From Ignavibacteriales bacterium (GTDB taxonomy: Bacteria; Bacteroidota; Ignavibacteria; UBA10030), in the NCBI GenBank assembly GCA_026390575.1, contig JAPLFR010000003.1:1-64000 (forward strand): a stretch of 64,000 nt of DNA, given 5' to 3'. A program made the position numbers and the translations under genes. The notes beneath the pieces were generated by a model, which did no database searches, was not told where the DNA came from, and saw only the letters and a program-made list of their open reading frames with translations. Shown piece by piece: positions 20,305 through 33,449 of the stretch. How positions within the stretch are numbered: the stretch's first letter is position 1; every line of letters starts with the position of its first letter.

Positions 20305-21612
20305 CTAAAAATCATAAATAAAACTGACTTTCGGTTCTACTCGATCTTGTTTTTCAAAGGAACCATCAGCATGTAAGGAGCCATCTGGATATCTGTTTGA
20401 GAAGGTACGCTGATAAAGCATTGACACCAATAAATATTTGACAGGTTTGTACCCAATCTCTGCGCTCAGGATAGAAAAATTATCCAATATAAAAACGCGG
20501 CCTATTCTTGTTTTATCAAACGCCCCTCGCACAACGATACCGGCGACCTGCGGCAATTGCAATTCTGCATGCAGTATGCCTTGGTTTTTGACGTCATAAG
20601 GAGCCTGATAGCCGGCGACGATGTTAAAGGTGTTCAGGACGCTAATAATGATCTCGCCAAAATAACCTCGGTTTGCAGCAACTTGCAAAAGCGTGTCTGA
20701 TTTACTGAGTCTAGTGACAACATTAAACCGATCATGTTCATATAATGCGTTGAAATAAGCAGGTATATAATTTGCACCATTTATGCGAAATTCATATTTC
20801 CCTCTGAGTGTGAGGATTCCCATACCTGAAAGAAACATGTTTATCCCGACGGTAGAGCCATGTCCATAATTGGAGATCTGAGCAAAATCGTAGTACAAGG
20901 TCGATTTTAAGAATGAGTAAGATAATATGGGCAACCCAAGATCGAAACCATAGATCGAAAGACCGGCTCTACTCGAGTCAAGGTGTGTGTAATCGGCATA
21001 CAGGTCCATATCACGTGCATAGGTGACGCCGACTTCAAAGTTGCTGATCACCGGAACCTTCGCAAGACTTGTGAACTTTAAGGGTTTTGCATACCCGCGT
21101 AACCCCAAGAGTCCTCTTCCTGTAAAATCGCTGTATACAAATTCGAAACCGAACTTCTCAAAATTGAAATCTAATTCCATTCCTGTTCTCCGCATATCAT
21201 AGCTTGCACTATTTCGGTAATTATAGATGATCGATCCGTGGCCAAGTAGCGAGTAATCAAGCTGACCGACACGTACGTAGAATGGATCACCTTTTTGCGC
21301 CCAGCGAACATAACGAATGATACGGAGATAGTCTTCAAATTTTGAATAATCACCCATGCGTAGCTTCCCCTGCGTATTGAAACGCAAATTGAGATCGAGA
21401 CCTATGCCGAGCTGTCCGAATGCTACTTCCGGCGTAATGTTGATCAAGTAATACATTTCGCCATCTATGAAAGTGGCGCCAAAGCCCATCGGGATTGTAC
21501 CACCACTCTTTCCCATCATCGCTGCGGCGGCATTTGGGAGTTGTGCGTTTACGGAGAACGATACAAACATCAGCATCAAGAATATGACAACGAGTATTTT
21601 AATTGATTTCAT
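20305..21612 (-). CDS. putative outer-membrane beta-barrel protein
   Basis: A 435-residue secreted protein. It has a clear signal peptide (IKILVVIFLMLMFVSFSVNA|Q) and a body of short amphipathic strands with many Tyr, Gly and Arg, consistent with an outer-membrane barrel; it ends in an aromatic strand (RVEPKVSFIYDF), the usual assembly signal. AGGAGG precedes the ATG. The family is not recognised. It starts 31 bp after spmB and ends at a hairpin terminator, so it may share a transcript with spmA-spmB. Confidence 0.65.
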   Translation of the reverse strand: MKSIKILVVIFLMLMFVSFSVNAQLPNAAAAMMGKSGGTIPMGFGATFIDGEMYYLINITPEVAFGQLGIGLDLNLRFNTQGKLRMGDYSKFEDYLRIIRYVRWAQKGDPFYVRVGQLDYSLLGHGSIIYNYRNSASYDMRRTGMELDFNFEKFGFEFVYSDFTGRGLLGLRGYAKPLKFTSLAKVPVISNFEVGVTYARDMDLYADYTHLDSSRAGLSIYGFDLGLPILSYSFLKSTLYYDFAQISNYGHGSTVGINMFLSGMGILTLRGKYEFRINGANYIPAYFNALYEHDRFNVVTRLSKSDTLLQVAANRGYFGEIIISVLNTFNIVAGYQAPYDVKNQGILHAELQLPQVAGIVVRGAFDKTRIGRVFILDNFSILSAEIGYKPVKYLLVSMLYQRTFSNRYPDGSLHADGSFEKQDRVEPKVSFIYDF

Positions 21613-31740: not shown

Positions 31741-31873
31741 GTGTTGCTCTTTTTTCGTGAGCGGCAATCACACACTGTCATTGTGCAGTAGTTGTCTGGA
31801 CAGTGTTCTTTCTTAAAGAAATTTATGAAAGAAGTACCATTGGCGCAACAACAGATTTTTCGACCAATGCATA

Positions 31874-31902
31874 ATTATACATCTAGTGCCGTTTCCATTA
31901 AA
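31874..31902 (-). promoter_or_regulatory. candidate promoter of the guanylyltransferase gene
   Basis: On the minus strand TATAAT (31879-31874) matches the -10 consensus exactly. The hexamer 17 bases upstream (TTTAAT) is a weak -35. The spacer is occupied by one arm of the inverted repeat at 31885-31899, so binding there could block or help RNA polymerase. Confidence 0.4.
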
Positions 31903-31987
31903 TAATCTTGTGTTTTAGATAATGCGGTTGCAAATGGAAACGAGCACTACTGCCTTTTTTATTTTTGTTTAATAAAAACACAAGATT
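31885..31987. repeat. two interleaved inverted repeats (pseudoknot-like order)
   Basis: Arm A, AGTGCCGTTTCCATT (31885-31899), pairs with AATGGAAACGAGCACT (31933-31948) with one bulged base. Arm B, AATCTTGTGTTTT (31904-31916), pairs perfectly with AAAACACAAGATT (31975-31987). The order A, B, A', B' is that of a pseudoknot or of two mutually exclusive hairpins. It lies between the pyk stop and the downstream guanylyltransferase gene. Confidence 0.7.
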
Positions 31988-32009
31988 TCTTTTTAGAAGT
32001 GGCCCTAGA

Positions 32010-33449
32010 TTATTCCACACGCTCCACATGAACAGTATCCGTTGTTCCCATCGCCTTCAATGGTAATCCGGCAGTGAAGACAACAAAGTTACCGCGTTCA
32101 ACATATCCTTCTTGTTTGAGACATTCAATAATCTTGCGGAATGCTGTATCATTATCTTGGATGAAATCTTTCATGACAATACCGCGCACAGACCATACGA
32201 GGTTTAAACTGCGAAGGATTCTTTCGTCGCTGGTTATTGCAACGATCCTCGATTCGGGGCGATACTTGCTTATTTTCACTGCTGTTGCACCTGAATGTGT
32301 GATTGGTACGATTGCTGTGGCATTCACCTGGCGAGCCAAGACACAAGCCGCACGCGCGATAGCATCAAATACATTCTGCTGAATTTCCGCTGGAATTTGT
32401 TTGATGCTTAAGTGATTGCGCAAGCGAATTTCAGCCCGGCAAATAATGCGATCCATCGTTTGCACAGTCTCAACCGGATATTTTCCGACCGACGTTTCTG
32501 CGCTTAACATAACAGCATCTGCGCCATCAAGCACGGCGTTTGCGACATCGCTTGCCTCGGCACGTGTGGGTCGCGGGTTTTCTATCATCGATTCCAGCAT
32601 TTGCGTTGCGATAATCACGGGGACACCGGCTTCATTGCACTTTCGCACAATCATCTTCTGCAGGATGGGCACATCTTCCGGCATCATCTCAACTCCAAGA
32701 TCACCACGCGCGACCATAACAACATCGGTTTCCGCCACGATGGAATCAATGACATCGATCGCTTCTTTCATTTCTATTTTTGCAACAATAGGGACCCGTA
32801 CTTTTGTCTGCTGCTGAATGACGGACCGTAGATGTCGAATATCTTCGGCAGACCGCACAAATGAAAGCGCCACATAATCTACGTCATGTAAAATGCCGAA
32901 TTGCAAATCCTCTATGTCTTTTTCAGTCAACGACGGTGTACTCAACTTGACACCTGGTAGATTCATTCCCTTATGTTCCTTCAGAATGCCGCCATTGATC
33001 ACCGTACATTCAACATCCCTTACTGTTTTCGATACAACCCGCAGTGCCATTTTCCCATCATCCAATAAAATAGTATCTCCCGCTTTCACATCATCCGGTA
33101 ATTCACGGTACGTCGTTGCAACCCGGTGTTCATCTCCCACAATTTCATCGATGGTGAATGTGAACGTTGCACCGGCTTTCAATTCAATGGAATTATTCTG
33201 AAGTTTTCCTGTCCGGATCTTCGGCCCGCACAAATCCTGTAAGATGCTGATGTGCTCTCCCGTGAGTTTGCTCGCCTCTCGTACATTTTGGATGGATAAG
33301 AGATGATCCTCATGCGTTCCATGTGAAAAATTCAATCGCGCAACATCCATACCTGCATTAATAAGTTCCACCAATTGTTTAATACTCTGCGAAGCAGGAC
33401 CGAGTGTGCAAATAATTTTTGTTTTGGCGATCGCTTTTTTAATTCTCAT
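32010..33449 (-). CDS. pyk: pyruvate kinase
   Basis: Converts phosphoenolpyruvate and ADP to pyruvate and ATP, the last step of glycolysis. The 479-residue enzyme shows the N-terminal KTKIICTLGPAS, the active-site lysine strand VAKIEMKEAID, the metal-binding MVARGDLGVEM and the ATQMLESMIENPRPTRAEASD signature, plus the C-terminal allosteric-type domain. AGGAGAGAG precedes the ATG. Its first 11 bp overlap the end of the sirtuin gene, so the two are coupled. The interleaved repeats follow its stop. Confidence 0.96.
   Translation of the reverse strand: MRIKKAIAKTKIICTLGPASQSIKQLVELINAGMDVARLNFSHGTHEDHLLSIQNVREASKLTGEHISILQDLCGPKIRTGKLQNNSIELKAGATFTFTIDEIVGDEHRVATTYRELPDDVKAGDTILLDDGKMALRVVSKTVRDVECTVINGGILKEHKGMNLPGVKLSTPSLTEKDIEDLQFGILHDVDYVALSFVRSAEDIRHLRSVIQQQTKVRVPIVAKIEMKEAIDVIDSIVAETDVVMVARGDLGVEMMPEDVPILQKMIVRKCNEAGVPVIIATQMLESMIENPRPTRAEASDVANAVLDGADAVMLSAETSVGKYPVETVQTMDRIICRAEIRLRNHLSIKQIPAEIQQNVFDAIARAACVLARQVNATAIVPITHSGATAVKISKYRPESRIVAITSDERILRSLNLVWSVRGIVMKDFIQDNDTAFRKIIECLKQEGYVERGNFVVFTAGLPLKAMGTTDTVHVERVE

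Follow-up and report, generated by a model that had tools for sequence, protein, structure and literature searches.

Results

In the 64,000-nucleotide stretch of Ignavibacteriales DNA analyzed here (the window), two long inverted repeats are interleaved between the end of a minus-strand gene that we take from its translation to be pyk (stop codon at 32010-32012) and the beginning of a second minus-strand gene, presumably GDP-mannose/nucleotidyltransferase-like and likewise named from its translation. The order A-B-A'-B' given by the first-pass annotation was confirmed, as was its description of one near-perfect and one perfect stem: arm A (AGTGCCGTTTCCATT, 31885-31899, plus strand) pairs with arm A' (31933-31948, plus strand) apart from a single bulged base, A31943, on the A' side, and arm B (AATCTTGTGTTTT, 31904-31916, plus strand) pairs perfectly with arm B' (31975-31987, plus strand). 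Such an arrangement had been judged very unlikely by chance, and simulations supported this for B-B' and for the interleaving. In the 64-kb window, B-B' was the only perfect inverted repeat of at least 13 bp whose arms start no more than 90 bp apart (first-order Markov mean of 0.05), and an interleaved combination of inverted repeats of at least 10 and at least 13 bp appeared in none of 40 simulated windows. The same did not hold for A-A' taken alone, since the window has five perfect 10-bp inverted pairs within 60 bp and simulated windows have 3.35 on average.

The first-pass annotation also placed a promoter at one of the arms. The TATAAT motif is indeed present on the minus strand (31879-31874), but a sigma-70 consensus scan reported no promoter-like site, which makes the promoter a weak claim, and among five same-genus relatives aligned only one (G004) has the motif. 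Upstream of the GDP-mannose gene and outside the repeats, a block at 31818-31852 (AAAGAAATnTAnGAAAGAAGT...CGCAA) is largely conserved in all six genomes of the genus that were aligned. As a candidate promoter or leader it is preferable to the TATAAT. No intrinsic terminator was found by a scan with a loop limit of 3-8; the A-A' stem (hairpin 1) of the window is followed by a T run that begins 7 bases past the stem, a run that is absent in the copies inspected from G008, G191, and G097. A search against Rfam yielded nine matches up to an E-value of 10, none of which reached its gathering score, and those overlapping the repeats were to miRNA and CRISPR-repeat models, with scores well short of the cut-offs.

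Alignment of dispersed copies, together with a covariance model (R1) built from 24 copies in six genomes, delimited a unit of 124 bp that runs from a left TA to a right TA (31884-32007), and R1 matched the window over this very interval at 125.5 bits, the window copy being one of the 24 in the model. The aligned copies have the common ends TAGTGCC...GGCACTA and no common flanking sequence. The left terminal repeat (31884-31916, plus strand) consists of the tip GTGCC, the variable stem arm A, and the conserved inner block B, and the right terminal repeat (31975-32007, minus strand) carries B' as its inner block. Both stems are thus enclosed by a larger imperfect inverted repeat (31881-31916 and 31975-32010, 78%), which is the terminal repeat of the element. 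Two halves of ~60-68 bp meet at a central TA (31948-31949) in copies of 124-133 bp, and the second half of the window copy opens with an inner tip, CTGCC, followed by a T run (31950-31960, plus strand). Copies of the family are mostly about 105-130 bp long and contain no transposase, as in a miniature inverted-repeat transposable element (MITE). The right tip of the window copy reads GGCCCTA, and this copy may be dead as a result of the alteration. A loose tip search of the window returned one further 119-bp stretch (20853-20971) bounded by TAGAGCC and GGCTCTA, which is probably a chance occurrence.

The genome from which the window comes has a second copy that is 98% identical to the window copy (C16:243971-244095). 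A 107-bp subfamily is represented there by three copies, on contigs C8 and C9, one of them a weak match (39.7 bits). By DNA search, 8 of 21 genomes, this one included, had matches, with up to 25 places in one genome. When R1 was run against 294 genomes of the class, matches were found in 16 genomes, of which 14 belong to the same family; these are counts of genomes, not of copies, because at most 11 candidates were scored per genome under stricter filters. Among the 24 genomes listed for the family, five of the 14 with a match were sources of the model, nine were independent of it, and the other 10 had no match to the model. Outside the family, G169 had two 172-bp copies without the inner tip and G043 had one copy. 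A pattern scan of named genomes found complete copies in two Ignavibacteria metagenome-assembled genomes (MAGs) and in one MAG labelled Bacteroidetes. It also returned the tip in Planctomycetota and other records, some possibly by chance, and in several other matches the tip was present while the second end was not recognizable. Two of the Planctomycetota stretches (L133:3660-3813, and L148 from 5171; one is 154 bp) are MITE-like, with the same tip (TAGTGCCGTTTCCAAT) and a second end and without inner arms, which suggests that the tip is widespread among such elements. Two unusual forms were seen as well: a solitary 62-bp second half with intact tips on both sides (L115:1768-1829, from G002:C150), as if a half-element could exist, or be left, alone, and a ~500-bp unit (L048:898-1397, from G005:C208) with a MITE-like left end, a MITE-like right portion, and an unrelated middle, which may be a larger non-autonomous relative.

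The first-pass annotation had linked the repeats to the GDP-mannose gene. At the window junction, two genomes of the same genus (G004 and G005) keep the pyk and GDP-mannose neighbors without the insert, in a junction that has otherwise diverged, and three others (G001, G002, and G003) have other sequence there. Since copies are dispersed over many places and this junction lacks the element in G004 and G005, the link to the gene looks accidental.

In order to define the insertion site, we compared flanks and empty sites. Flanking the left TA (31884-31885) of the window copy is a C at 31883, and a G (32008) follows the right TA (32006-32007). In the flanks of 29 elements (27 MITE copies and 2 full-size elements), C preceded the left TA in 23 and G followed the right TA in 28. 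IS630 itself is said, by the title of a 1991 study by Tenzen and Ohtsubo, to prefer CTAG. A clean filled and empty pair was provided by the 107-bp subfamily, in which G000:C8 reads ...CAGTTC-TA[GTGCC...GGCAC]TAG-AA and G005 reads ...CAATTC-TAG-ACC. The flanking frame of 681 residues ends as C-TA[element]TA-G in G000:C8, while its counterpart on G005:C66 ends as C-TAG with no insert; the two proteins are 75% identical and align through the last residue, 681. The G000:C8 site is an insertion at CTAG with the TA duplicated, and duplication of TA is a habit of the IS630/Tc1-mariner family, as the portion of PMC2170065 consulted describes for IS630 and ISY100.

The rebuilt stop codon at this site was seen once as a filled and empty pair, and its generality was examined through open frames of at least 90 codons (not gene calls) that reach an element, among the 122 element sides for which 300 or more bases of flank were available. 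The terminal codon of the element stopped the flanking frame exactly in 41 of 52 cases (TAG in 38 and TAA in 3), compared with a chance expectation of about one third. Two identical pairs (G246_C309/C315 and G246_C71/C131) represent one place each, and as their four sides are out of frame, counting each pair once gives 41 of 50. With a limit of 60 codons, 47 of 65 were in frame 0. CTAG is strongly depleted in the window (21 seen, against 45 expected under a Markov model and 241 under a zero-order model), 18 of the 21 fall within gene-like frames, and CTAG closes none of the 57 frames of this kind. As judged from this one stretch, the location of CTAG therefore does not explain the bias toward stop codons. 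The window copy itself lies outside any stop codon, directly after the TAA of pyk and 2 bp from that stop.

Full-size elements with such ends were found in related genera, namely G008:C17 (1140 bp), G012:C167 (1141 bp), and G246:C184 (~1146 bp). All three have a match to DDE_3. The protein pieces of the G008 and G012 elements, the two whose reading frames were read, match Pfam HTH_29/HTH_32 and the IS630 model NF033545, the latter below the NCBIfam whole-protein cut-off of 100 bits, and in both the transposase is split into pieces in different frames. The left terminal repeat of the window copy shares 27-28 of 33 positions with the best ends of the G012 and G008 elements; the right terminal repeat shares 27 of 33 with the minus-strand end of the G012 element and 22-25 of 33 with the six other ends tried, and the G246 ends agree with those of the window at 23-26 of 33. 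Block B is conserved in sequence, the full-size ends included. The inner arm A' as such was not found by R1 in the two full-size elements searched (L111 and L112), where the matches to the ends were weak (18.5-24.2 bits). In G246:C184, a 66-bp fragment resembling one MITE half lies ~100 bp past the right end of the full-size element (L248:889-2197). DDE_3 was found in four of 11 genomes searched; the surroundings of the G256 match and of one of two G246 matches, in the DNA examined, contained no such ends. No DDE_3 was found in the other seven, which are the genome of the window, G002, G005, G007, G191, G097, and G259, so that the transposase is absent, lost, or missed in these genomes and the MITE looks orphaned in its own.

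To compare the two stems, we performed arm-swap tests, in which the pairing of an arm with its own partner is set against its pairing with the partners from other clusters. Of 79 copies collected, 75 were used, in 29 clusters; the four left out were the two 172-bp copies of G169 and one 98-bp copy of G259, which have no recognizable inner arm, and one truncated copy of G256. For A-A', cognate arms gave -19.2 kcal/mol and non-cognate arms -15.2 kcal/mol, none of 20,000 permutations was as good, and with one copy per genus from nine genera all 400 draws reached P<=0.01, although no more than 7 of the 29 clusters had the cognate arm as the single best partner. The letters of the arms differ among copies, as in GTTTCCA/TGGAAAC, GCTTCCAA/TTGGAAGC, GGTTCCAA/TTGGAACC, and GTTCCAAC/GTTGGAAC. 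For B-B', cognate and non-cognate arms were alike (-7.4 and -7.5 kcal/mol), 11,953 of 20,000 permutations were as good, and none of 400 per-genus draws reached P<=0.01. Kinship among copies can inflate such tests, and B-B' serves as a control on the same copies, together with a swap of left and right tips, which was likewise null (7,854 of 20,000 permutations did as well, and P<=0.01 was reached in none of 400 per-genus draws). A plain count over the 24-copy alignment is insufficient by itself to separate the stems (A-A', 86.0% of cells pair, with changes on both sides in 7 of 14 pairs; B-B', 74.7%, with such changes in 5 of 13). Covariation in relatives, proposed by the first-pass annotation as a check, is therefore found for A-A' and not for B-B', and the A-A' hairpin is one that compensating changes have kept between genera while its letters changed. 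B-B' is complementary because both ends of the element carry the same block, and in the absence of covariation in this stem the pseudoknot or the two exclusive RNA folds that had been suggested are not supported.

The second half of the element mirrors the first, with a second inner arm that pairs with the right tip, more weakly in most clusters. Hairpin 2 is strong in G008, G191, and one copy of G097, where it has a stem unlike that of the first half (for example, GCTCCCA/TGGGAGC) and an extra base in the inner arm; it is weak in the genus of the window, which has CTGCC and the T run instead. In the arm-swap test none of 20,000 permutations was as good and 395 of 400 per-genus draws reached P<=0.01, with the cognate arm as the single best partner in only 5 of 29 clusters. 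A single extra inner base was found in 20 of 75 copies, and one further copy had more than one. The 107-bp subfamily (own genome and G009), which is the source of the clean empty site, barely forms hairpin 1; in G000_C8 the inner arm gave -9.9 kcal/mol with its own tip and -13.5 kcal/mol with the other tip.

We considered how the pairing of tip and inner arm could arise without being selected. It is quite possible, if not our favored reading, that templated quasipalindrome repair matches the arms, or that the subfamilies originated independently, each through an inverted duplication of its own tip, as either process would yield matching arms without any function. The non-standard pairs of hairpin 1 (9 G-T and 11 A-C cells) fit with this, and with no excess of G-T they give no support for selection on a one-strand RNA, leaving DNA folding or arm-templated repair. 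However, 61 of 75 copies carry an extra base of varied identity on inner arm 1 near the tip (47 A, 6 G, 6 T, and 2 C; none in 14), a feature that repair would tend to erase and that independent origins would not be expected to share, and hairpin 2 is poorly paired in many clusters and has not been corrected. On these two grounds we tentatively place selection for the hairpin ahead of arm-templated repair. Alternatively, and in our estimate improbably, the inner arms are extra binding sites for the transposase, and the arms look paired only because both the tips and the inner copies track one enzyme. The inner arms do resemble the tips, the inner tips of the G008 and G191 copies stand back to back like two ends, and a preference of inner arm 2 for its own tip is seen in only 15 of the 29 clusters, with 1 tie. 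Against this, inner arm 1 fits its own tip better than the other tip of the element in 27 of 29 clusters, the left tip of an element does not change in step with its right tip, and where two tips differ in one element (GTTCCAA and GCTCCCA in G008) the inner arms follow their own side.

A cis-regulatory RNA of the GDP-mannose gene, folding as a pseudoknot or as two exclusive structures, is very unlikely. Its low folding energy on both strands (z of -4.0 and -3.7), its place between two genes of one strand, and the both-side changes in B-B' would suit such an RNA, but the element is dispersed and missing from the same junction in relatives, B-B' shows no covariation in the swap tests, no Rfam family was matched at its gathering score, and the conserved upstream block lies outside the element.

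Discussion

Overall, the dispersed copies, empty junctions, IS630-type ends, and duplication of TA point to a non-autonomous MITE and not to a gene-specific switch, and we conclude with high confidence that the feature in the window is one copy of an IS630/Tc1-mariner MITE family of Ignavibacteria that inserts at the TA of CTAG and whose A-A' hairpin is kept by compensating changes. The MITE cannot move by itself and probably uses a transposase supplied by an insertion sequence of the IS630 type. The transposase of a full-size IS630-type element would recognize ends of ~33 bp, made up of the tip TAGTGCC and the block CTTGTGTTTT, and would excise the element and reinsert it into the TA of a CTAG site, with duplication of the TA. 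Since the element begins with G, an insertion into a C-TAG stop codon would rebuild TAG from the TA and the G of the element, and the placement of copies is consistent with such insertions being harmless and surviving. This suggests that a CTAG target combined with an end that starts with G is a simple route to harmless insertion.

The element may need its hairpin, whether in DNA that is extruded during mobility or in an RNA just past a stop codon. A bolder proposal, which we regard as doubtful, is that the transposon tip must pair with its internal arm, with the hairpin and its extra inner base as a working part of mobility. If true, a hairpin would take part in mobility, for example by hiding or presenting the end in an extruded or single-stranded form, and the mechanism would differ from that described for ISY100, which is a plain cut-and-paste of double-stranded DNA. 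How MITEs spread to many copies despite cut-and-paste helpers is an old question, and a part of a transposon end that covaries with an internal partner across nine genera offers a direct test of whether folding, of DNA or of RNA, matters in the spread or the tolerance of MITEs.

Several known repeats resemble this family. IS630 and ISY100 likewise duplicate TA, but they are full-size elements with a transposase (portion of PMC2170065 consulted). The REPIN group, which depends on RAYT, is not known to duplicate its target as a habit, whereas TA was duplicated at the one filled and empty pair seen here. It is thus highly improbable that the repeats are palindromes of the REP/REPIN type mobilized by a tyrosine transposase (RAYT): compensatory stem changes are reported for REPINs in the sections of PMC3116915 seen, and termini that often supply a TAG stop codon for GTAG-tagged REPs in those of PMC3733652, but the Ignavibacteria MITE duplicates TA at an empty site and shares its ends over ~33 bp with DDE-type IS630 elements.

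Closer parallels are found among other short repeats, as described in the part of PMC2229807 consulted. The Caulobacter CIR is likewise ~110 bp, with two inverted-repeat arms and a linker, and is called unlike other bacterial repeats; it has GANTC sites and a mobility mechanism said to need more information, whereas the Ignavibacteria MITE has IS630 ends and TA/CTAG insertion. With regard to two arms, hairpin 1 is clear in the MITE, and hairpin 2 passes the swap tests with an own-tip preference of its inner arm in about half of the clusters. The Correia/NEMIS elements of Neisseria are likewise MITEs (~105-107 or 155 bp) with filled and empty sites and an RNA that folds; the same excerpt of PMC2229807 relates that their stem-loop transcripts were proposed as RNase III substrates and that, for the 155-bp form, putative divergent promoters as well as an IHF site inside the element were reported. 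RUP of Streptococcus pneumoniae (107 bp, linked to IS630-Spn1) has IS630-type terminal inverted repeats, a TA target, a similar length of ~107 bp, and an intergenic, non-coding nature; within the consulted part of PMC2229807 it is given no other structural or functional signature, while the Ignavibacteria MITE, in another phylum, pairs its tip with a covarying inner arm. Among the open-licence papers listed in our literature searches, none dealt with Ignavibacteria MITEs or with a MITE of IS630 type whose inner arms covary. The view of the first-pass annotation that nothing known matches is wrong for the kind of element, since IS630-type MITEs are already known, but it is fair for the architecture in which a tip is paired with an inner arm.
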